This document shows, piece after piece, positions 7,419 to 62,999 of a stretch of 64,000 nt of DNA. Location of the stretch: positions 7,192,001-7,256,000 of the forward strand of contig NZ_CP134696.1 in NCBI RefSeq assembly GCF_031851795.1, written 5' to 3'. Position 1 is the stretch's first letter. The number at the start of each line of letters is the position of its first letter. Origin of the DNA: Pontibacter sp. G13. GTDB lineage: Bacteria; Bacteroidota; Bacteroidia; J057. The notes under the pieces were generated by a model. That model saw nothing but the letters and a program-made list of their open reading frames with translations, had not been told where the DNA came from and searched no databases. A program made the translations under genes and the position numbers.

Positions 7419-8003
7419 TTAGGCTAGGGTTTTGGCAAATCTACCCACGCTCGCCAAGAGATTTTTGCGCATCTGGTCATCTCTTCCACGCAGTTGCCCC
7501 GACATCACCAGCGAAACATGTCCATGTGCAAGGGACCACCAACTGAGGAACATTTCATCCAAATCCCCAGCAAATAACATCAGGTGTGAAAGGGTTTTCA
7601 AGACGCTATGGGCGCTTTCACGCAAGGCCATCGGATTGGTCGCGGTCGATCGAATTCCTTCCATATTGAACATCACCTGATATAGTTCTGCGTGCCGGAA
7701 TGCCCAATCCCAAAATGCTGCCGTGATCGCCTTGAGCTGAGCCATGGGATCGGTTTGGGTTTGTCGAGCATCGTCCAAATGCGCACCCAACATCCGAAAT
7801 CCCTGATGTTCTAGCTCGATCAATATCGCTTCCTTGTTGCGGAAATGTTCATAGATCACCGGTGGCGTGTACTCGATCTTGTACCCGATTTTCCGAATGG
7901 ACACATTCGGCCAACCATCCTGAATCGCCAATTCCCGGGCCGCCTCCAAGATGCGCGCCTTCATTTCCTCTATTTCTCGGGATCTACGTTCCTTGTGTCC
8001 CAT
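7419..8003 (-). CDS. TetR/AcrR-family transcriptional regulator
   Basis: The 194-aa protein has a typical TetR helix-turn-helix (ARILEAARELAIQDGWPN, VSIRKIGYKIEYTPPVIYEHF, NKEAILIEL; residues about 14-62). The ligand domain, with a 'FWDWAFRHAELYQVMF' helix, resembles the TetR_C_33/WHG subtype. Such proteins are small-molecule-responsive repressors. It is divergent from the amidase-asparaginase pair, with about 260 bases between the two starts, so control of that operon or autoregulation is possible. I saw no convincing operator palindrome in that gap. Confidence 0.9.
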   Translation of the reverse strand: MGHKERRSREIEEMKARILEAARELAIQDGWPNVSIRKIGYKIEYTPPVIYEHFRNKEAILIELEHQGFRMLGAHLDDARQTQTDPMAQLKAITAAFWDWAFRHAELYQVMFNMEGIRSTATNPMALRESAHSVLKTLSHLMLFAGDLDEMFLSWWSLAHGHVSLVMSGQLRGRDDQMRKNLLASVGRFAKTLA

Positions 8004-35174: not shown

Positions 35175-36434
35175 TCAAAAGCTCCATTTCAATCGCACAA
35201 AGATCGAGCTGGACAATGGGCTGAATGAACCGTCCAATTGAGCAAAGTACAATTGCCCGATTCCGTCCAAATCCCAGTTTTCCTTGATGGAGTAGGTGAG
35301 GGAAGGATTGATGATAAGCTGATGATCTAGCGTCATGGGACCATCCAAGCCATACATGATGCCGATACCTCCCGTGAAGATTGGGGAAAAACTACCAGAT
35401 GCCACTCCGAAAAAGGTCCATTGCGCTGGAAACAGGTTCCTGGCAGATGGTTGGGCAGTCACCAAAATAGGACCGGGTACATCGCCTGCCCCGGAGGTGT
35501 TGAATACTCGATTTCCGTTGGAATTGTACAGGACAGAGAATGTGGTGAAAAGCCCACTGCCGACCCCGAACATGTATTCAACCGAAGCTGTCGCACTCAA
35601 GGAGGCCACGGTGTCCCAAACAGCCGTCCTGCCATCTAGCGGAAGGAACCCTGTCACCTCTCCTTTGAATCCGGCTCCGCCAATCGCACCATCCCATCCA
35701 CCACCAATCGCAATATCGCCTTCGAAGTACCCTCCCAAAAACTGGATATCGTACGCTTTTTTGTTGAAACGATATAGGGCTGCTACGGTCGTGCTCGTGT
35801 CTGCATCCCCCGGGGCAATGGCCAATTCTACATGGGATAGTACGCCTGTGTAGTACAAAACCCTGACTGCGTCTGTGCCCGGGCGCTCCTCGTAGTCAAA
35901 GTCAAAATAATTGAATGCATTGAAGAGATCGTTGGGGTTCCAAATGGTATTGATGCCCCAATTGATTCGCTGGCGGCCCGCGGTGATTTCCCATTTTTCG
36001 CCCTCGTACCGAATGTAGGCCCGATCGAATACCGTCGTAAGTGCCCAATAGTTGTTGTCAAACCAAACAACCGAGAGGTCCAGTAATCCATTGTTCTGAA
36101 CCACCAAATCCGCAAAATTTGGATTGGTCCTGACTTGATCCCCATAAAACAATCGATTCCGGGCACTTATGGAAAAGTTCCATCTCTCGGAAGGATCGTA
36201 CGTCAAATCCAGACGATTGTGGAATTCGTGATCGATAATGGGTTGTTTGAGTCCGCCGATAAGATCTGGATTGGGGACTGAATAGGTTTCCAGAAATTTG
36301 ACATAGCCACTCAGCTGGAGTTTTTTGATCTCCTCGCTGGATTGCCCCAAGGCTGAAGAAAAGGAAAGGCACAGCAGGCATATAGCGATCCCACGGGCAA
36401 TATTTGTTGCCGGGGAACTGAAAATTCCAGACAT
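35175..36434 (-). CDS. Outer-membrane beta-barrel protein, DUF1302-like
   Basis: The 419-aa protein has a signal peptide (ARGIAICLLCLSFSSALGQ), alternating amphipathic strands throughout and a C-terminal aromatic ending (IFVRLKWSF), the usual barrel-assembly signal. The segment AGRQRINWGINTIWNPNDLF resembles DUF1302-type barrels, which in other bacteria sit beside lipid-export machines with LolA-like partners. It is the last gene of a minus-strand run that includes an ABC ATPase, two permeases, a LolA-like protein and a TetR regulator, so it may be the outer-membrane end of that exporter. Its substrate is unknown. Confidence 0.8.
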   Translation of the reverse strand: MSGIFSSPATNIARGIAICLLCLSFSSALGQSSEEIKKLQLSGYVKFLETYSVPNPDLIGGLKQPIIDHEFHNRLDLTYDPSERWNFSISARNRLFYGDQVRTNPNFADLVVQNNGLLDLSVVWFDNNYWALTTVFDRAYIRYEGEKWEITAGRQRINWGINTIWNPNDLFNAFNYFDFDYEERPGTDAVRVLYYTGVLSHVELAIAPGDADTSTTVAALYRFNKKAYDIQFLGGYFEGDIAIGGGWDGAIGGAGFKGEVTGFLPLDGRTAVWDTVASLSATASVEYMFGVGSGLFTTFSVLYNSNGNRVFNTSGAGDVPGPILVTAQPSARNLFPAQWTFFGVASGSFSPIFTGGIGIMYGLDGPMTLDHQLIINPSLTYSIKENWDLDGIGQLYFAQLDGSFSPLSSSIFVRLKWSF

Positions 36435-36478: not shown

Positions 36479-37171
36479 TTATGCGTGTACGGTCTTGGTT
36501 TCGTCTTTGACGATCACGCCATCGTCAATGGTGATCACTCTTCGGGCTCTGTCGATCACCCGCTGGTCGTGGGTGGAAAACACAAAGGTCATGTTTTCTC
36601 GCTGATTCAATTCCACCATGATATCCAGCAATTGATTGGTGGAAGCAGAGTCCAAGTTCGCAGTGGGTTCATCCGCCAAGACGAATCTAGGGTGAGAGGC
36701 CAATGCACGGGCTACGGCCACCCGCTGTTGTTGACCGCCAGACATTTGACCCGGTCTTCGATTGATCTGGTCTCCGAGCCCGACTTCTTCCAGCAATTCG
36801 ATGGCTCGTTGTTCGCGTTGGGCTTTGGGCTGATTTTGGAGCAACATGACGAATGCGACATTCTCTTTGGCCGTCAGTACCGGAATCAGGTTGTAGGCCT
36901 GGAAAACAAAGCCAATGTGATGCAGGCGAAAGTCGATCAATTGATTGTTGGATAGGTTGGTGATGTTTTCTCCGCCGACGAAGATTTCTCCCGCAGTGGG
37001 GGTATCCAACCCTCCGATCATATTGAGCAAGGTGGTTTTGCCTGATCCGGAGGGGCCTACCACGGCAGTGAATTCTCCTTCCTGAATATGAAGGCTCACA
37101 CCATTGACCGCGTGTACAGGAACCGCGCCCTCGTAGGTCTTGTGTATGTTATGGGTCTCAATGACATTCAT
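36479..37171 (-). CDS. ABC transporter ATPase, LolD/MacB type
   Basis: The 230-aa ATPase has Walker A GPSGSGKTTLLN, Q-loop GFVFQAYNLIP, signature MSGGQQQRVAVARAL, Walker B VLADEPTANLD and H-loop FVFSTHD. The pattern matches the LolD/MacB group, which powers lipoprotein release or mechanotransmission rather than transmembrane translocation. I chose ATG 37171 (MNVIETHNIHKTY); a TTG three codons earlier is also in frame. It lies 22 bases after a FtsX-type permease gene and 44 bases before the outer-membrane barrel gene. Confidence 0.93.
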   Translation of the reverse strand: MNVIETHNIHKTYEGAVPVHAVNGVSLHIQEGEFTAVVGPSGSGKTTLLNMIGGLDTPTAGEIFVGGENITNLSNNQLIDFRLHHIGFVFQAYNLIPVLTAKENVAFVMLLQNQPKAQREQRAIELLEEVGLGDQINRRPGQMSGGQQQRVAVARALASHPRFVLADEPTANLDSASTNQLLDIMVELNQRENMTFVFSTHDQRVIDRARRVITIDDGVIVKDETKTVHA

Positions 37172-37193: not shown

Positions 37194-38435
37194 CTAGAGG
37201 GCCCGTACGGCCTCGGATGGTTTTAGGCTCAGTGCCTTGAAAGCAGGGTAGAGGGCAGACAGCAAGGCAGCTATCACGACCATGATCAGAATCTCCCCGT
37301 AATAGGTCGGGTCGATTTCCGGATAGACGATATTTTCCATGCCGAATGAGGAGAGTCCTTCGGAGAATGAACTCAAATCGATTCCCACCCGATTGAAGGT
37401 GGTAATGAGTCCCCAACCGATCAGCAGGCCGATAGGCGCCCCGGCAACCGTCATGAAGACCGTTTCCAGCATGATCATGAGGAAGATCTTGGCCTTATTC
37501 ATTCCGACTGACATCAACATGCCCAGCTCTCGGGTACGCTCAAGGACAGCCATGAGCATGGTATTGATGATCCCAAAGGACAACGCCAGCAGAATGATCC
37601 CAATGAAGATCCGCATGTAGACATCAAAGGTCTCATCCACCATCTTGAGATCTGGGTTGAGGTCCAGCCAGCTTTCCACCTTGTCATCGGGATATGCGGC
37701 CTGCAATGCTTGCTTGACAGTATCCACTTGTTCAGAAGTATTCAGCAAAGCCGCCACTTGATGTAGGGCATCCGGCTTGCCGAGGAGTTCTTGCATATCC
37801 GAGCGATCGACGAATACGACCATTTCATCATATTTGCTGTTCACGGTCTTGTAGAGCCCTACAATCCGGAAGCTCGCCTGAAAGGTGCTGTCGCCGTTTT
37901 GGAAGGTCAGGACGACCTTTTTGCGAAGTCTGTAGCTGGTGGAATCTCCATCGGTTTTGACGTACCCGAGCTTTTCGGCCAGTTTCTCGCCTACGACAAT
38001 GGGCTTGCTCCGAGAGCCTTCGAAGTAATCCCCCGCGATCATGCGGTCATCCAAATGGGTGATCTGAGATTCTTCGGCTGGGTCAATTCCCATGATTTGC
38101 ACGCCAAATCCTCCTTTGGGATTGGACAGCATGCCATTGACAATGAGCCTACCTGTACTGGCTTTTACCTCAGGGTAATTCGCAAGCGTTTGGAGTACTT
38201 CTTGGCCGTCTTCGAGAAAATATTGGGTCTCCTGGTCCTCTTTGAAGGCAGGGCTGTGAACTTGAATGTGTGAAGTCTGGGTTTCGACGATATTCTTGGC
38301 ACGTTGCTCATTCATTCCGAAGGAGAATGCCATGAAAAACAGCCCCAGAGCCAATCCAGAGGCAATGGCCATGATGACCACCAGGCTTCTGAGCCTATTC
38401 CTCCAGACATTCCGCCATGCAATGGTAAATAGCAT
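37194..38435 (-). CDS. ABC permease, FtsX/LolE-like, copy 2
   Basis: The 413-aa protein has the FtsX/MacB fold: an N-terminal transmembrane helix (LRSLVVIMAIASGLALGLFF), a large periplasmic domain, and three C-terminal helices (IIINTMLMAVLERTRELGM region; MIMLETVFMTVAGAPIGLLIG; ILIMVVIAALLSALYPAFKA). It begins MLFTIAWRNVWRNRLRS, the same motif as the other two permeases in the cluster. I chose ATG 38435; the frame opens further upstream inside the preceding gene without conserved content. It probably forms a heterodimer with the neighbouring permease. Confidence 0.9.
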   Translation of the reverse strand: MLFTIAWRNVWRNRLRSLVVIMAIASGLALGLFFMAFSFGMNEQRAKNIVETQTSHIQVHSPAFKEDQETQYFLEDGQEVLQTLANYPEVKASTGRLIVNGMLSNPKGGFGVQIMGIDPAEESQITHLDDRMIAGDYFEGSRSKPIVVGEKLAEKLGYVKTDGDSTSYRLRKKVVLTFQNGDSTFQASFRIVGLYKTVNSKYDEMVVFVDRSDMQELLGKPDALHQVAALLNTSEQVDTVKQALQAAYPDDKVESWLDLNPDLKMVDETFDVYMRIFIGIILLALSFGIINTMLMAVLERTRELGMLMSVGMNKAKIFLMIMLETVFMTVAGAPIGLLIGWGLITTFNRVGIDLSSFSEGLSSFGMENIVYPEIDPTYYGEILIMVVIAALLSALYPAFKALSLKPSEAVRAL

Positions 38436-38460: not shown

Positions 38461-39675
38461 TTAATGACGCATGGCCTTAACTGCATCCAATCTTGAAATT
38501 TGGATGAGTGGATACAGGCCAATGAATAGAGCAATAAAGAACACCGTCAACGCTTGGGAGAAAAATATGGAGGGATCGACAGCTGTCGGGATCAGCGGTT
38601 CCATCCCATATTGGGCGTAAGCCTCGGCCATTTCTTCTCCCATATTGATCGGGTTGATATTGAGGTATTTGACGAGCGGAAACGCCAGCCCCATCCCAAC
38701 AAGCGCACCGATCAGGGAGGCAAAGATGGTTTCCATAATAACGATCGCGGCCAGCTTGATACGTTTCATGCCGATGGCAGTCATGACGCCGAATTCGTAT
38801 TGGCGCTCGGCAGTCATCATGAGGACGGTTCCAAATATGCCGAAGGCAATGATCAGGTAAAGAATGGCAATCGTGATAACAGAACCTCCTTTATCCGCTT
38901 CCATGGCCTGAACCATGTCGGGCATCATCTGCTTCCAGTCGTGCACGGCATGTTGATCATCCAATTGAGCGGAGAGCGCCTCGGCAATCTGATCGGTGTT
39001 GCGTGGCTGGTCCACATCTATGACATAGGATGAAACCAGTCCGTATGCATCGTACATGTCCTGTGTGACGCTCAATGGAAGGTAGCACATTCTAGCGCTC
39101 AGCTCTGGAGAACTGAATTTGGCTAGGCCCGCTACTTCGAATTTGCCTTCCGCGCTTGCGCCGTGGTATCCTGAAGAAATGATCACCAAGGTATCACCGA
39201 CGCCTAGCTTGAGTTTCTCAGCCAATTTTTCTCCCAACACTGCCTGAGGCTTGTCAGCCTGTAGATAAGTGCCAGAGGCGATTCTGCCTGCCAGACCTGT
39301 GAGTTGGTCCTCTAGTACTGGATCAATTCCCACCACGAGGCTCCCCTTGGTGTGCTCTCCGGAAGAGCAAAGCCCAAAGGTTTCAAGCCTTGGAATGACC
39401 GAACTTACATGATCGATATCGGCGATTTGGGCTCTCAGTGCTTCTGTATCTTCGAAGCTATTGTCAATGGTCTGGTCGTCCCAATAATCAGCCTGATGGA
39501 CTTGGACATATCCGGTGTGATAGCTGACGACATTGGAGATGAGCTGATCCCAAGTGCCTTCTTGGAGCGATCCCATGAACACGGACATGAAAACCGCCAG
39601 AGCCACCATGGCTACCGTGATGAAGGTCCGTCGTTTGTTACGCCAGAGGTTTCGCCAAGCGAGTGTTAGCAGCAT
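38461..39675 (-). CDS. ABC permease, FtsX/LolC-like, copy 1
   Basis: The 404-aa permease begins MLLTLAWRNLWRNKRRTFIT, has one N-terminal helix, a periplasmic MacB-type domain (VIPRLETFGLCSSGEHTKGS, GDTLVIISSGYHGAS) and three C-terminal helices ending LYPLIQISRLDAVKAMRH. It is clearly paralogous to the permease at 41195-42409: same length, and shared motifs such as WRN.WRNKRRTFIT, GYHG and ATERKYEFGVM-like segments. It lies 27 bases after the LolA-like gene and 25 bases before the second permease, inside the operon. Confidence 0.92.
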   Translation of the reverse strand: MLLTLAWRNLWRNKRRTFITVAMVALAVFMSVFMGSLQEGTWDQLISNVVSYHTGYVQVHQADYWDDQTIDNSFEDTEALRAQIADIDHVSSVIPRLETFGLCSSGEHTKGSLVVGIDPVLEDQLTGLAGRIASGTYLQADKPQAVLGEKLAEKLKLGVGDTLVIISSGYHGASAEGKFEVAGLAKFSSPELSARMCYLPLSVTQDMYDAYGLVSSYVIDVDQPRNTDQIAEALSAQLDDQHAVHDWKQMMPDMVQAMEADKGGSVITIAILYLIIAFGIFGTVLMMTAERQYEFGVMTAIGMKRIKLAAIVIMETIFASLIGALVGMGLAFPLVKYLNINPINMGEEMAEAYAQYGMEPLIPTAVDPSIFFSQALTVFFIALFIGLYPLIQISRLDAVKAMRH

Positions 39676-39702: not shown

Positions 39703-40464
39703 TTATTGGATTCGCTTCATGTTTTGCACGGAGAAAAAATTCTCGGAGATCGGGTTGTCGAATTCGATGGAACTGGTCTCAACCACGGTCTTGTGTCCAT
39801 CTTCCTCAACAGGGATCATCTCAATTCGGGTGACCACATCTCGGCCATCCATGTTTTTGATTTGAGATCCCTCCATGATATTGATGAGGTAATTGTCCTC
39901 GTCATAGTATTCGCCACGAAGCTGTAGATAGTCCTCCTGATCTACCCACAGGTGGATTTTTCCCCAGACGATAGCAGTCTCCTCATTGGGAATCATTTCG
40001 ATTTTCCAGCACTTGCGGCCTTGGATGGTGGTGTCGCCGAGGATTTGGGATTGATAATCCTTTTCGTAGGAGGATTCACGGACGAAATCATCATTGGTGT
40101 AGTCGGAGCCCATCCACGATTGGGACATCATGGAAGGGGGGAGCTTGACGGTCCGCTCAATTTTTGGACGCCAGTTCCAGATTTCCTTTTTGCGCTTGAG
40201 CGTTACGTTTCCCTTGTCTCGCGCAGGAGCGGTAATGAGCATGAGCGCGTAGTCTTCTCCTTTTGACCAGCTTTTGATCGTCATGGTACGGGTCCAGTCT
40301 GGACGTACGATGGTCATATTCATCACACTGGCAGAGCTCTGGACCCCTCGACGGATTTCCTCTGATTTTCTCAGAATGTCCGAGGCGGTTTGAGCCTGGA
40401 GCTGGCCGCCTAGTCCCAAGAGTAGGAGCAAGGCAAATGGCCATATAGTCTTTTTGATATTCAT
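39703..40464 (-). CDS. LolA-like outer membrane lipoprotein-sorting protein
   Basis: This 253-aa periplasmic protein has a signal peptide (IKKTIWPFALLLLLGLGGQLQAQ). The LolA_like domain contains MNMTIVRPDWTRTMTIKSW, KRKKEIWNWRPKIERTVKLP, MMSQSWMGSDYTNDDFVRES and WKIEMIPNEETAIVWGKIHLW. Such proteins ferry hydrophobic cargo between inner-membrane transporters and outer-membrane partners. It starts 5 bases after the TetR stop, so regulator and carrier are one transcript. Together with the barrel and permeases it points to lipid or hydrophobic-molecule export. Confidence 0.9.
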   Translation of the reverse strand: MNIKKTIWPFALLLLLGLGGQLQAQTASDILRKSEEIRRGVQSSASVMNMTIVRPDWTRTMTIKSWSKGEDYALMLITAPARDKGNVTLKRKKEIWNWRPKIERTVKLPPSMMSQSWMGSDYTNDDFVRESSYEKDYQSQILGDTTIQGRKCWKIEMIPNEETAIVWGKIHLWVDQEDYLQLRGEYYDEDNYLINIMEGSQIKNMDGRDVVTRIEMIPVEEDGHKTVVETSSIEFDNPISENFFSVQNMKRIQ

Positions 40465-40469
40465 AATGG

Positions 40470-41099
40470 TTAGGATTTGTCAGTTTCGGTTTGTGCGGTA
40501 AATGAGGGGATTTCCACCCCTTCCAAATCATATCGCTCATAGAAAGCCTTTCGGGCTTTTTCGAGCAATTGGGTATCGTTCATCACTACATATTGGATTC
40601 CGAGCCCATCGAAAGTAGCCGCCATGAACAGGGCCTCTGATTCAGGGTTGGGAATGCCAGCTGCCTTGAAGAATTCTACCATCAAAGGCGTGTAGGATTC
40701 ATACTTGGCACGAATCATCGGTTCCAGCTCTGGGAAATCCTGCAGTTGAAGCGATATCCCGAACATGAGCCGCGTGTGGTATGCATCTTCCAGCATGAAA
40801 TCAATCCCGTAGTCTACGAGTAATTTGATCTTCCCTTTGGGATCTTCGATGGCTTCCATCTGCTGAATCATCCCTGCGGAAGCCTCCATGCCGTGGTGAA
40901 TGATGCCCGTCATGAGATCCTCTTTCTTCTGAAAGTAATTGTAGATCAGGCCCTTCGCTACCCCCGCCTCTTTGGCGATTTGGGCAATCGAAGTCTTGTG
41001 GTATCCCTGCTCGGCAAATAGCTTCAAGGCAGCCTCCAAGATCCGAGCCTTGCTCTGTTCTCTGATCTGAAACAATTGTTTCTCCGTTCTCGGACTCAT
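40470..41099 (-). CDS. TetR-family regulator of the export cluster
   Basis: The 209-aa protein has a textbook TetR DNA-binding domain (KARILEAALKLFAEQGYHKT, SIAQIAKEAGVAKGLIYNYF, KKEDLMTGIIHH; about 17-65) and a helical ligand domain. It is the first gene of a six-gene run (TetR, LolA-like, two permeases, ATPase, barrel). A 16-bp imperfect palindrome lies 16 bases upstream of its start and a nearly identical one precedes the divergently placed extra permease, so autorepression and coordinated control of both units are likely. Confidence 0.92.
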   Translation of the reverse strand: MSPRTEKQLFQIREQSKARILEAALKLFAEQGYHKTSIAQIAKEAGVAKGLIYNYFQKKEDLMTGIIHHGMEASAGMIQQMEAIEDPKGKIKLLVDYGIDFMLEDAYHTRLMFGISLQLQDFPELEPMIRAKYESYTPLMVEFFKAAGIPNPESEALFMAATFDGLGIQYVVMNDTQLLEKARKAFYERYDLEGVEIPSFTAQTETDKS

Positions 41100-41114
41100 A
41101 GTAAATTTTTATGG

Positions 41115-41130
41115 TTGACCGGTCAGTCAA
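41115..41130. promoter_or_regulatory. Predicted TetR operator 1
   Basis: TTGACCGGTCAGTCAA is an imperfect palindrome with 5-base arms TTGAC/GTCAA, 16 bases upstream of the TetR start codon. It differs in only two positions from the palindrome at 42448-42463. Confidence 0.7.
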
Positions 41131-41194
41131 TGTTACGAACTTTTTTCGAAAACTGTTCTATCAGGTCTTGAAAAAACTGAAAAAAGGTCCCGGA

Positions 41195-42409
41195 TTATTT
41201 GCGCATGGCCTTTACGGGGTCCAGCTTGATGAGGGATGCAAATGGGTAGATACTCACCAAAAGGGTCAGGGTGAGAATGACCTTGACTTGCGACCAGAAA
41301 ATGTTGAAGTCAACTTCTGCCGGGAGATAGGGCTCTAGCCCAAAGTCTGCATAGACTTCCGCCATTTCTGCGCCCATGTAGACAGGATTCACCTGAAAAT
41401 ACCAGACCACCGGAAAGGCCAACGCACAGCCGATCAACGCGCCAAGAACAGCCACGCAAAGCGTTTCGATGATCAATACTCCAGCAATGCGAGAACGCTT
41501 CATGCCAATGGCCGCCATGACCCCGAATTCATATTTGCGCTCTGTGGCCATCATCAACAGCGTCCCGAACATCCCAAAGAAGATGATCATGTACAGGATT
41601 CCGGCTCCCAGTTTCGCACCTCCCTTTTTGCCTTCTACAAACTGGACAAGCTCAGGCATCATATCTGCCCATGTCATGACCTCGTATTCGGAGCCAATCG
41701 TCTCTTGAAGTTCATCCCTGAGTGTTTCCAGACCCTGACTTCCGTCTGTTATGATGACTTCAGCGGTCTGCCTGCCAAAGGCATCGTACATGTCCTGGGC
41801 TATATCCAGCGGCAAGTAGGCCATTTGCAGATTCAGGTCAGGAGAACCGAAATCCAGAATCCCCACCAGCGGAAACTTTCCGTCTGATTGGACGCCGTGG
41901 TAACCTTGGGCAATGAATATCAAGGTGTCTCCGACAGATACTTTGAGGCGTTTGGCCAGTTCTTCTCCGATCATCACACCCGGCTCGCCGAGGGAGAGAT
42001 ATTCACCTTCCCTGATTCGACTGGGAAGGTTGGTCGCTGATGCTTCTGAACTGGGGTCTATGCCTACTGTGAGGCATCCGCGCGTCAATAGGCCTGTGGA
42101 AATCAGGGCGAAGTTTTCTAGCCTAGGCGCCTTGGCTAGGACTTTTGGATGGTCCTGAATGGAGGAAAGGAGGGTAGGATCTGCTTGGTAGGACTCGTCT
42201 ATGACCTGATTGTCCCAATAGCCAGCTTGATGGATTTGAAGGTTGCCAGAGTAGAAGTTGGTCATGTTGTCGACCATCTTGTTGAAAATCCCGGCTTGGA
42301 AGGATTCCATGATGATGGACAGGAGGACGGCCATCGCAATCATGCCGGCTGTAATGAAGGTGCGGCGTTTATTCCGCCAAATATTTCGCCAAGCTAGTAT
42401 CAAATACAT
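41195..42409 (-). CDS. ABC permease, FtsX/LolC-like, copy 3 (own operator)
   Basis: The 404-aa permease begins MYLILAWRNIWRNKRRTFIT and follows the same plan as the permease at 38461: N-terminal helix, periplasmic domain (VLAKAPRLENFALISTGLLT, GDTLIFIAQGYHGVQ) and three C-terminal helices ending YPFASLIKLDPVKAMRK. I chose ATG 42409 because it aligns exactly with the start of that paralogue, gives the same 404-aa length and leaves the TetR-type operator upstream instead of inside the gene. It lies immediately upstream of the TetR gene on the same strand, 95 bases apart. Confidence 0.9.
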   Translation of the reverse strand: MYLILAWRNIWRNKRRTFITAGMIAMAVLLSIIMESFQAGIFNKMVDNMTNFYSGNLQIHQAGYWDNQVIDESYQADPTLLSSIQDHPKVLAKAPRLENFALISTGLLTRGCLTVGIDPSSEASATNLPSRIREGEYLSLGEPGVMIGEELAKRLKVSVGDTLIFIAQGYHGVQSDGKFPLVGILDFGSPDLNLQMAYLPLDIAQDMYDAFGRQTAEVIITDGSQGLETLRDELQETIGSEYEVMTWADMMPELVQFVEGKKGGAKLGAGILYMIIFFGMFGTLLMMATERKYEFGVMAAIGMKRSRIAGVLIIETLCVAVLGALIGCALAFPVVWYFQVNPVYMGAEMAEVYADFGLEPYLPAEVDFNIFWSQVKVILTLTLLVSIYPFASLIKLDPVKAMRK

Positions 42410-42446
42410 CGTGCAGAGGGTTAGATTTCCGCACAATGTATCGAAG

Positions 42447-42464
42447 GTTGACCAGTCGGTCAAC
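42447..42464. promoter_or_regulatory. Predicted TetR operator 2
   Basis: GTTGACCAGTCGGTCAAC has 7-base arms (GTTGACC / GGTCAAC), 37 bases upstream of the permease start. It matches operator 1 in 14 of 16 core positions. Confidence 0.72.
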
Positions 42465-42495
42465 TATAAAATGTAAATACAGGAGATGATTTTTG

Positions 42496-43125
42496 TCAGG
42501 CTTCCTCGGAAACCATTTCATAGACCAGGAGGATTTTCAGCAGATCGGGATCTCTTCCCGTTTCAGCTTCAGCGATCCATTTGAGGATTTGCTCCTTGAC
42601 TTGATCGTCGAATGGATACATGAAATAGTAGCTGCTATTGGAGAATTGGTCCATGCATCTGGCAAGTTCTTGCTCTCGATCCTCGGCAGGGGCAGCCAAT
42701 AAGGAGATGGCAAATGCTCTGGCTTCGAAGAAAGCTCGGAAAGGCGCGGGGATCGGAAGGAGGAAAAGCAGGAATAGGAGGGACCAGGCACCCAACCAGG
42801 GAAAAGAGAAAACCCCAATGGCGAAGATTTGCGGAAATAGGTAGCTTACCATGAAGGCTGCCGGATGGTATCGCTCCATATCCAATAGATGAACTGCCTC
42901 ATGCGCTAGTACACGCATTGCACGGTCTGGATACATTCGGACGTATGCACGGGAGGGGAAATAGACGGTGGAACCTACGACAGTTGTGTAGTGGGTGAGG
43001 AAGGTCGGGCAGAACCAGACGGCGAACAAATTGAGGATCTGCATCTCCCAAGATTCATCTTTGTAGCGAATCCTGAAAGGGGCAATGGCATTCAATTCCG
43101 CAACCAATTTGTCAAATGATTCCAT
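42496..43125 (-). CDS. Putative membrane metallopeptidase (HExxH), 209 aa
   Basis: I cannot assign a named family. The protein carries a zinc-binding motif in RVLAHEAVHLLDMERYHPA (HEAVH, about residue 75). Two hydrophobic stretches follow (MVSYLFPQIFAIGVF; LGAWSLLFLLFLLPIPAPF), and FFEARAFAISLLAA comes about 55 residues after the HExxH and could supply the third Glu ligand. The N-terminal domain is small and partly beta. This layout resembles membrane-bound M48- or gluzincin-like peptidases, but substrate and activity are unproven. Next to it, 12 bases apart, is the response regulator-cyclase gene. Confidence 0.65.
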   Translation of the reverse strand: MESFDKLVAELNAIAPFRIRYKDESWEMQILNLFAVWFCPTFLTHYTTVVGSTVYFPSRAYVRMYPDRAMRVLAHEAVHLLDMERYHPAAFMVSYLFPQIFAIGVFSFPWLGAWSLLFLLFLLPIPAPFRAFFEARAFAISLLAAPAEDREQELARCMDQFSNSSYYFMYPFDDQVKEQILKWIAEAETGRDPDLLKILLVYEMVSEEA

Positions 43126-43137
43126 CGTCTTGGCAGT

Positions 43138-44142
43138 TTAGGTTTGCTTGACACGATCTACGTGACATAAAGATACGGTCTGTTGTTTTCCGCGTAGCAC
43201 AAAATCGCCAATTATTTGAAATTCAAAGCCGTGATCGTCAGGCAATTCTTGCATCAAATTTTGGGATACCAACAGTTTGGCGCTATAGCGATTGCATAGG
43301 CCTTCGATTCGCGAGGTCGTGTTTAGGACATCTCCCGAGAATATTCGCTCCTTTTTCAGTGTGCCGATGTAGCCTTGACTAACGTCCCCGAAGTGCATGC
43401 CTGCTTTGAATGTCGGACTGAGGCCGAATTTCTCCACATATTTTTCTGAGAGTTTCGCCATTTGGTCTTCGATGGCAAAGAAGCATTTCAGGCATTTGGC
43501 TTCTTCGGCACCATGGTCCAGTGGCCAAGTGACCACTACCTGATCGCCCACATACTGGTAGATTTCTCCCTGATGGGCAGCAATAGGGTCCGAGACATCC
43601 GCAAAAAACTGATTGAGCAGTTCGAAGTATTTGACGTGCCCCAACTCTTCTGCAATCCGAGTGGAGGACTTGATATCCAGAAACATGAAGATTCTGCAAG
43701 CCTCCTGTACCTCTGGGGTTTCCGTCCCGTTGTTGGAGTGGGGAAGAAGGTGGGCGTTTTGTTTGAAGGCGGATAGTATGGTGTCCAACAGTTTGTCATT
43801 CTCCCAAGGCTTGATGACGAAATCAGCAGCGCCCAATTTCATGGCCTTGATGGCTAGGTCTACGTCGCCATACGCCGTCATGAGTACCACCTGCGATTCT
43901 GGACTTTGTTCACGGATTTGCTGTAGCCAATGAAATCCCTCCTTGCCGCTGGTCGCACCAACGGAGTAATTCATGTCAAGGATGATCACATGGAAATGCC
44001 CCTGACTGAGGAGCTGGGTGATTTTGTGGGGAGTGTTGGCAGTGACAATTTCCGCAAAATGCCGCCTCAGCAAAATCCGAAGGGTCAGCAAGATTCCCTC
44101 GTCGTCGTCTATTATTAGGATTCTGCCTTTTCTATCAGCCAT
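43138..44142 (-). CDS. Response regulator fused to class III adenylyl cyclase
   Basis: The 334-aa protein joins a receiver domain to a cyclase domain. The receiver (about 1-125) has RILIIDDDEGILL, phosphoacceptor Asp in VIILDMNY, VVLMTAYGDVD and the Lys in DFVIKPWEND. The cyclase (about 145-330) has the metal Asp in MFLDIKSSTRIAEEL, the second Asp in YQYVGDQVVVTW, a Lys in FKAGMHFGDV and an Asp in FSGDVLNTTSR (the K/D pair typical of ATP-specific enzymes), plus the transition-state Asn and Arg in NTTSR. cAMP production under two-component control is therefore likely. I chose ATG 44142 (MADRKGRILIIDDD). No histidine kinase is adjacent. Confidence 0.88.
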   Translation of the reverse strand: MADRKGRILIIDDDEGILLTLRILLRRHFAEIVTANTPHKITQLLSQGHFHVIILDMNYSVGATSGKEGFHWLQQIREQSPESQVVLMTAYGDVDLAIKAMKLGAADFVIKPWENDKLLDTILSAFKQNAHLLPHSNNGTETPEVQEACRIFMFLDIKSSTRIAEELGHVKYFELLNQFFADVSDPIAAHQGEIYQYVGDQVVVTWPLDHGAEEAKCLKCFFAIEDQMAKLSEKYVEKFGLSPTFKAGMHFGDVSQGYIGTLKKERIFSGDVLNTTSRIEGLCNRYSAKLLVSQNLMQELPDDHGFEFQIIGDFVLRGKQQTVSLCHVDRVKQT

Positions 44143-44227
44143 AGGAGTTGAATACCGGCAGGAATTCCCCGCCAAAAAACTAAGTTACCGAGTTTCCCTT
44201 GATATTGCCAACTCCGGATAGTTAGAA

Positions 44228-61476: not shown

Positions 61477-62198
61477 CTTCTTCCTGCATACCATAATTTC
61501 TATCCCATCGCATCATTCCAGAAAGGTATAAGCCGCGGCCTGTGTGTCGGGACCTTATGTGGAATCTCCCTGCGCTTGAAACTTTCCCGCCCCCACTTCT
61601 ATGCCTCATCCCGCAAAATTTCGCAGCGGTGGGATCTGTGGGTGGGGAAATTTATGCGGGATCTCACGCCTCGTGTATGCTAGGGCTTGTATGTTGCCGA
61701 GCCCGCTCCACAAGCCCCTAGGCGATCTCTCCTGGGATACCTGAAAAGCTGAACGGGGGCCGGATTATCCACTGGCCAGTGCGCTTGCCGAAATCTCCTC
61801 GACAAACTTGGTTCAGCCCTGCGTGCGCCCAACCACGAATCCCATTGCAGAGACGTGTGATCCCTGATAAATCTTCCTCACCCGCCATGTCATCCTGAAC
61901 GGTCATAGCCAAGGCCGCGAGCGATGGTGGTCGATTCAGGATCTTGCGGCAACCTTGACATTCATTCATGGCTAGATTCTGAATAAATCTCTTACCCGGA
62001 GGCCAATCCTTCAGATTTTTCAGAATGACACAAGGGGTTCTTCTTGTTATCCACCCCATCGCTTCATTCCAAGCAGGCATGTGCCGCGGCCTGTGTGTTG
62101 GGCTTGGGATGCTGCCCTTTCGGGCTTCTTTTTCTTCAAGGTGCCCACGAGGGACAGGTGCCCACGAGGGGCACCTCTACAAAAAGGGATAGGAAGCA

Positions 62199-62258: not shown

Positions 62259-62999
62259 CTTCTTCCTGCATACCATAATTTCTATCCCATCGCATCATTC
62301 CATAAAGGTATAAGCCGGGGCCTGTGTGTCGGGGCCTTATGTGGAATCTCCCTGCGCTTGAAACTTTCCCGCCCCCACTTCTATGCCTCATCCCGCAAAA
62401 TTTCGCAGCGGTGGGATCTGTGGGTGGGGAAATTTATGCGGGATCTCACGCCTCGTGTATGCTAGGGCTTGTATGTTGCCGAGCGAGGAACTGCTTGCCA
62501 AGCCCGCTCCACAAGCCCCTTGGAGATCTCTCTTGGGATACCTGAAAAGCTGAACGGGGACCGGATTATCCACTGGCCAGTGCGCTTGCCGAAATCTCCT
62601 CGACAAACTTGGTTCAGCCCTGCGTGCGCCCAATCGCGAATCCTATTGCAGGGACGTGTGATCCCTGATAAATCTTCCTCACCCGCCATGTCATCCTGAA
62701 CGGTCATAGCCAAGGCCGCGAGCGATGGTGGCCGATTCAGGATCTTGCGGCAACCTTGACATTCATTCATGGCTAGATTCTGAATAAATCTCTTACCCGG
62801 AGGCCAATCCTTCAGATTTTTCAGAATGACACAAGGGGTTCTTCTTGTTATCCACCCCATCGCTTCATTCCAAGCAGGCATGTGCCGCGGCCTGTGTGTG
62901 GGCTTGGGATGTTGCCCTTTCGGGCTTCTTTTTCTTCAAGGTGCCCACGAGGGACAGGTGCCCACGAGGGGCACCTCTACGAAAAAGGGATGGAAAGAA

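Follow-up and report, generated by a model that had tools for sequence, protein, structure and literature searches.

Two near-identical candidate TetR operators precede a putative envelope export operon and a duplicated permease gene in Pontibacter sp. G13

Two near-identical palindromic sites in the 64,000-nucleotide stretch of Pontibacter sp. G13 DNA analysed here (the window), termed O1 and O2, are very probably operators of the adjacent TetR-type protein, which through them would repress both its own operon and a second unit that holds the permease gene perm3. We read O1 and O2 as operators because they are the sole exact matches to their pattern in the genome, because the site recurs in 76 of 80 loci from relatives, and because both share the same register with a predicted -7 promoter box. 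At the level of sequence, the reading of both as likely operators of the neighbouring TetR protein is thus supported. The sites and genes concerned are as follows.

41111..41130, minus strand: predicted operator O1 (20 bp), with its 16-bp core at 41115-41130; gene-strand sequence TTGACTGACCGGTCAACCAT
42444..42463, minus strand: predicted operator O2 (20 bp), with its 16-bp core at 42448-42463; gene-strand sequence TTGACCGACTGGTCAACCTT
41195..42409, minus strand: perm3, duplicate of perm1, forming the second unit, upstream of tetR
40470..41099, minus strand: tetR, presumed repressor (TetR_N and TetR_C_31 domains)
39703..40464, minus strand: LolA_like periplasmic carrier (PF17131)
38461..39675, minus strand: perm1, LolC/E-like permease of the FtsX/MacB type
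37194..38435, minus strand: perm2, LolC/E-like permease of the FtsX/MacB type
36479..37171, minus strand: LolD-like ATPase, its start taken as an ATG inside the listed frame
35175..36434, minus strand: predicted outer-membrane beta-barrel, porin-like, with no Pfam family at 0.001

The two sites and their rarity in the genome

The O1 core, TTGACCGGTCAGTCAA (41115-41130), is separated from the tetR ATG at 41099 by 15 bases, and the O2 core, TTGACCAGTCGGTCAA (42448-42463), from the perm3 ATG at 42409 by 38 bases; on the gene strand, these 16-mers read TTGACTGACCGGTCAA and TTGACCGACTGGTCAA, respectively. The preliminary description had proposed two near-identical 16-mers at the promoter position of each unit, and both points were borne out: the cores are identical at 14 of 16 positions, with palindrome pairing at 6 of 8 in each, and they closely precede tetR and perm3, the third permease gene. 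Its rendering of the motif as TTGACC-N4-GGTCAA proved not to be the best one, and gives way to a 20-column gene-strand site obtained from relatives, TTGACYRAMYGKTYARYCAA. The 45-bp flanks of O1 and O2 are unrelated, being identical at 13/45 and 16/45 positions, against 14/16 in the operator.

Within the 7.67 Mb genome (7,674,920 bases), the exact pattern TTGACYNNYCRGTCAA is found at O1 and O2 only, and many unrelated copies of the motif, which would speak against the proposed regulon, were not encountered. Allowing up to one mismatch gave 26 strand-matches versus 25 for a reversed control pattern, and allowing up to two gave 393 versus 356; since these counts resemble those of the control, we take the near matches to be background. 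Besides O1 and O2, the one-mismatch matches fall at 22 places, 17 of which are inside frames of at least 100 codons and five outside (L007, L011, L014, L251 and L253). For two of these five, L007 and L011, a frame starts at most 250 bases downstream, and their family-matrix scores are 13.9 and 13.2 bits. Hence, of the two-unit TetR regulon put forward beforehand, the two predicted operators are supported, and the claim that there are exactly two units is likely, with these weak intergenic near-matches remaining.

That two palindromes are alike by chance is so improbable as to be negligible. Near matches do turn up genome-wide as often as those of the control pattern, but exact ones occupy two places only, the site is conserved upstream of tetR in relatives, and when random pairs of 150-bp window stretches were compared, just 1 in 3000 shared palindromic 16-mers agreeing at 14 or more positions.

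Other forms of the site gave the following results in the same genome. First, a 19-column pattern, TTGACYRAMYGKTYANYCW, has O1 and O2 as its sole exact matches and three further places with one mismatch, and with up to three mismatches it yields 557 matches versus 648 for the control. Second, a matrix of the family's sites gives O1 26.8 and O2 25.7 bits, the best other of 57 loci reaching 18.4 bits inside a frame; after both window sites were left out of the matrix, the corresponding values are 26.1, 24.8 and 18.2 bits, the last for L003. Third, the 20-column pattern is fitted by O1 with one misfit and by O2 with two, and three other places also show two, namely, L246 (the same as L185) and L247 (the same as L198), both intergenic, and L248, in a frame; this makes five matches versus five for the control. 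Fourth, a stricter form that is common outside the family, TTGACYRAMCGKTYRGTCAA, has two other places in the genome within two mismatches, both inside frames, and neither O1 nor O2 fits it within two mismatches. The 20-column pattern by itself discriminates less well than the family matrix, and what speaks for O2 is where it lies and how closely it resembles the sites of the family, rather than the phylum-wide pattern.

Conservation of the site in relatives

A first set of relatives was obtained by searching 60 related genomes, 42 of which had some TetR-like match at an E value of 0.001, and by taking the twelve loci with the best matches. Read by eye, the operator is present upstream of tetR in 10 of these 12 loci, and none was seen there in L066 and L068. 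The exact core TGACYGACYGGTCA was scanned for in 13 genomes, that is, nine of the 13 family genomes and four more distant ones; its 12 occurrences are all in the nine family genomes, and none was found in the four distant genomes. Eleven of the 12 sites lie at the tetR locus, preceding either perm3 or tetR itself (G003 has two of the latter), and the twelfth (G002:C37, L088) lies elsewhere, within a frame of 1000 codons. Two genomes, G054 and G044, have GTTCA in the site before tetR where GGTCA is expected.

A second set came from an alignment-based search of genome contigs, in which the best 80 of 256 encoded relatives were kept. Seven of these loci (L099-L105), whose contigs equal in length those of seven first-set loci, were taken as identical with them, which leaves 73 held-out loci. 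When the 150 bases upstream of tetR in these 73 loci were scored with a matrix built on 11 sites of the family, 66 loci reached at least 10 bits and 50 at least 12 bits; the former count is still 66 when both window sites are dropped from the matrix. As a control, 365 random stretches of the same loci, some of which may include the operator, were scored, and 11 reach at least 10 bits and 8 at least 12 bits. The 20-column pattern was derived from the same loci as were counted with it, the matrix test being the independent, held-out one. With this pattern, 76 of the 80 loci have a site matching at least 18 columns in the 250 bp upstream of the tetR homologue. The other four are L122 and L157, with no such site, and L133 and L172, with 17 columns. 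Elsewhere in 1,144,493 bases (1.14 Mb), there is one site of at least 18 columns, in L157, and 13 of at least 17 columns, including the one in L157; 200 column-shuffled patterns gave a mean of 0.01 loci and a maximum of 1.

It is conceivable, although we consider it very improbable, that O1 and O2 are bound mainly by a different TetR-type regulator encoded in this genome, or by several jointly. The genome has 15 TetR-like matches, a related palindrome, TTTAACGACCGTTTAA, lies just upstream of another TetR-type gene (L185/L246), and two different TetR proteins of Thermus bind one and the same TGACCGGTCAGTCA site, according to the accessible part of PMC7022988. Against this, 76 of the 80 loci have the site next to the tetR homologue, and it is kept even if different genes follow downstream, at 18 or more columns in L134, L153 and L164, and at 17 in L172. 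This agrees with the assignment of O1 and O2 to the adjacent TetR; different TetR proteins can share such operators, and the regulator need not be the adjacent TetR alone.

Two observations on related sites may be added. The other TetR-type gene of this genome just mentioned has TTTAACGACCGTTTAATCAA just upstream of it (L185 1501-1519; G000:C1:1071741-1071760, also L246), a site of similar shape that probably serves that gene as its own operator. In L099, two operator copies (88-107 and 167-186) lie 79 bases apart before tetR, and this double operator is a duplicated promoter region.

Overlap with predicted promoters

The main -7 box of F. psychrophilum is TAnnTTTG, as given in the accessible part of PMC9723704. 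From this consensus, the following boxes are predicted in the window.

41128..41135, minus strand: predicted -7 box of the tetR promoter, TAACATTG, overlapping O1
42461..42468, minus strand: predicted -7 box for perm3, TATAGTTG, which overlaps O2 with the register seen at O1

The TA at -5/-4 before the operator is present in this register in both window promoters, and in 57 of the 76 gene-strand sites of relatives, a count that has no separate control; the TTG of the operator would therefore complete the -7 box. A TTG within -30 to -25 is found in 52 of the same 76 sites, again counted without a separate control, and at the expected -33 position an upstream TTG was found in neither window promoter. 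Because the 5' end of the operator overlaps the predicted -7 box, of the Bacteroidota type, in a fixed register, a bound repressor would be expected to cover both this box and the transcription start, and so block the promoter. Scans for promoters of the sigma-70 type and for terminators were uninformative; the latter reported no minus-strand terminator in 41060-42560, so that read-through from perm3 into the tetR operon may occur.

The tetR operon

The TetR_N domain (PF00440) is matched by tetR with an E value of 1.2e-19 and 70.2 bits, against a cut-off of 24, and the carrier matches LolA_like (PF17131) with 184.1 bits, against a Pfam cut-off of 30. Three closer assignments were rejected on curated cut-offs, namely, tetR as the Bacillus FadR (NF053878; 67.4 bits, cut-off 200), the permeases as those of a true LolCDE (TIGR02212; 109.2, 118 and 122.2 bits, cut-off 362.45), and the ATPase as a true LolD (TIGR02211; 236.2 bits, cut-off 307.75). 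For the product of the gene that has no Pfam family, an outer-membrane beta-barrel fold is predicted: an AlphaFold model, for which 40 of 53 barrel sequences were used as input, has a mean pLDDT of 85.2, and its best Foldseek match is 5ldt_A (E 8.6e-13, TM 0.54). By sequence profile, no PDB match was obtained for this protein.

Across the first set, tetR and the genes for the LolA-like carrier, perm1, perm2 and the ATPase follow each other in identical order in 12/12 loci, and the barrel gene is present in 11/12, the contig of L062 ending before the barrel position. In the second set, tetR and the LolA-like gene occur together in 74 of the 80 loci, and all six genes in 54; in the other 20 loci with a LolA-like gene, L165 among them, less than 5.7 kb of contig remains beyond the start of tetR, with L148 as the sole exception. 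Among the six loci that do not have a LolA-like gene, L123 is cut by a contig end, and L134, L153, L157, L164 and L172 have other neighbours. In L165 (9001-14148), tetR with its operator and LolA_like are accompanied by a 376-aa protein without a Pfam match and by an MMPL pump that replaces the ABC transporter.

The duplicated permease gene

The start of perm3 at 42409, as first annotated, was confirmed: with the left ends of the aligned permeases set from tblastn matches, this column holds M in 12 of 14 other permeases, L in one, and in the remaining one the match begins a residue later; the longer frame, from 42463, would contain the operator. The perm3 product is 47% identical to perm1, and the two are sisters in a careful tree of 20 permeases (of 81), with support of 98/97, and joined in a quick tree of all 81, with support of 96. 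Since perm3 and perm1 group in both trees, the perm3 copy would have arisen after the split from the relatives sampled, among which there is no genome of the same genus. The second unit appears to have been added to the regulon later, in this lineage, and not to have belonged to it ancestrally.

It is improbable that only the site before tetR works, so that O2 would be a leftover or too weakly bound and the regulon would consist of one unit. Such a situation could be read from the stretches of the 12 relatives, two of them with less than 2 kb upstream, where no extra gene of the perm3 type was found upstream of tetR; from the long branch of perm3 (1.24 versus 0.54); and from the slightly lower fit of O2 to the 20-column pattern (18 versus 19 columns). 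Yet the flanks of O2 have diverged and the operator has not, the TA of its -7 box is in the register seen at O1, and the matrix made without the window sites places O2 at 24.8 bits, with O1 at 26.1 and L003 at 18.2. We retain the interpretation of O2 as a probable second operator of the adjacent TetR.

Extra copies of perm1-like genes are also found inside the operon in L116, L118, L146, L177 and L066, apparently by separate duplications, and no second site of at least 18 columns was seen in L116, L118, L146 and L177. Two more loci, L158 and L167, were listed as having a double permease, with matches that overlap or are short and that may be one gene.

Proposed mechanism and comparison with known systems

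The mechanism that we propose is as follows. First, without its ligand, the TetR dimer would bind a palindrome-like site of about 20 bp, the 5' TTG of which would double as the 3' part of the -7 box, so that RNA polymerase would be kept off both promoters. Second, TetR would in this way repress its own operon, encoding a LolA-like carrier, two LolC/E-like permeases, a LolD-like ATPase and an outer-membrane barrel, and with it a second unit with one extra permease, perm3. Third, ligand binding would release TetR from the operators, and perm3, under the same switch, could then replace perm1 in the transporter. The cargo is likely an apolar or lipid-like molecule, because a LolA-like carrier, LolC/E-like permeases and an outer-membrane barrel make up, by analogy, a lipid-type route. 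A broader scenario, which we regard as rather unlikely, would see a Bacteroidota-wide switch for an envelope exporter, of which one lineage placed a copied permease under a second copy of the switch, thereby gaining the means to build, in response to the same signal, an alternative transporter whose specificity differs and which combines perm3 with perm2 and the common ATPase.

The kind of operator is already known, since both window sites fit the consensus of SbtR from Thermus, TGACYrnnyRGTCA. In Thermus thermophilus, two proteins that are likewise of the TetR family, SbtR (TTHA0167) and TTHB023/PfmR, are described in the accessible parts of PMC4948773 and PMC7022988. According to the latter, SbtR binds TGACCGGTCAGTCA with a KD of 1.2 nM, and TTHB023 binds ATGACCGGTCAGTCAG at 7.4 nM. 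The first of these sequences is identical to the 14-bp core of O1, and by eye both this core and that of O2, TGACCAGTCGGTCA, conform to the consensus. Many TTHB023 sites also cover the transcription start. These regulators differ in belonging to another phylum and in having fatty-acid enzymes and an efflux protein as targets, as far as these sources state (PMC4948773, PMC7022988). Unlike the Thermus operators, the site here is read as one of about 20 bp that overlaps a TAnnTTTG box. We also presume a resemblance between the window operator and the RutR site.

Parts of the operon have counterparts in several systems. One of them is PG1178-PG1181 of Porphyromonas gingivalis, also from Bacteroidota, where a TetR gene is found with a LolA-type protein and an envelope exporter, the latter being an MMPL pump and not FtsX-type ABC permeases; in the accessible text of PMC10434189 and PMC10470040, such TetR/MMPL/LolA-like genes are strongly induced when iron or haemin is scarce. 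Within the broader, rather unlikely scenario given above, related operons of this kind would hint at a signal linked to haem, iron or membrane lipids. The LolCDE-LolA system for lipoprotein release in E. coli shares two permeases of the FtsX/MacB type, a LolD-like ATPase and a LolA-like carrier, but the scores obtained here are far below the curated cut-offs, and our operon is linked to TetR and includes an outer-membrane barrel. The BBJ23-29 cluster of Borrelia resembles it in a MacB/LolE-like ABC transporter, a LolA-like protein and an outer-membrane barrel, and differs in that its barrel is of the Omp85 type and in its TPR proteins; a non-polar ligand is proposed as its cargo (PMC13078400, accessible part). 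AmeABCD of Castellaniella, linked to monoterpene tolerance or export, likewise combines an outer-membrane protein, a LolA-superfamily protein and an inner-membrane exporter, in this case with an RND pump and DUF1302 and DUF1329 proteins (PMC6394551, accessible part). No description of the tetR regulator and operon studied here was found in the open-licence literature searched.

Through the predicted operator, a putative envelope export operon that is conserved in Bacteroidota becomes open to inexpensive testing, and the genes that a tetR deletion should derepress are named. Moreover, a duplicated subunit sits here under what looks like the parent operon's own switch.

Neighbouring features of the window

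Directly upstream of perm3, at 42496-43125, the window encodes a 209-aa protein without a Pfam or NCBIfam match, which carries HEAVH; this is HEXXH-like, and the protein is a possible zinc peptidase. The stretch 43138-44175 encodes a response regulator receiver joined to a domain of the adenylate/guanylate cyclase type. Another TetR-type gene is located at 7419-8003. Finally, an identical 16-mer, CTTACCCGGAGGCCAA, occurs at 61991-62006 and 62792-62807, 801 bases apart, which suggests a long repeat.
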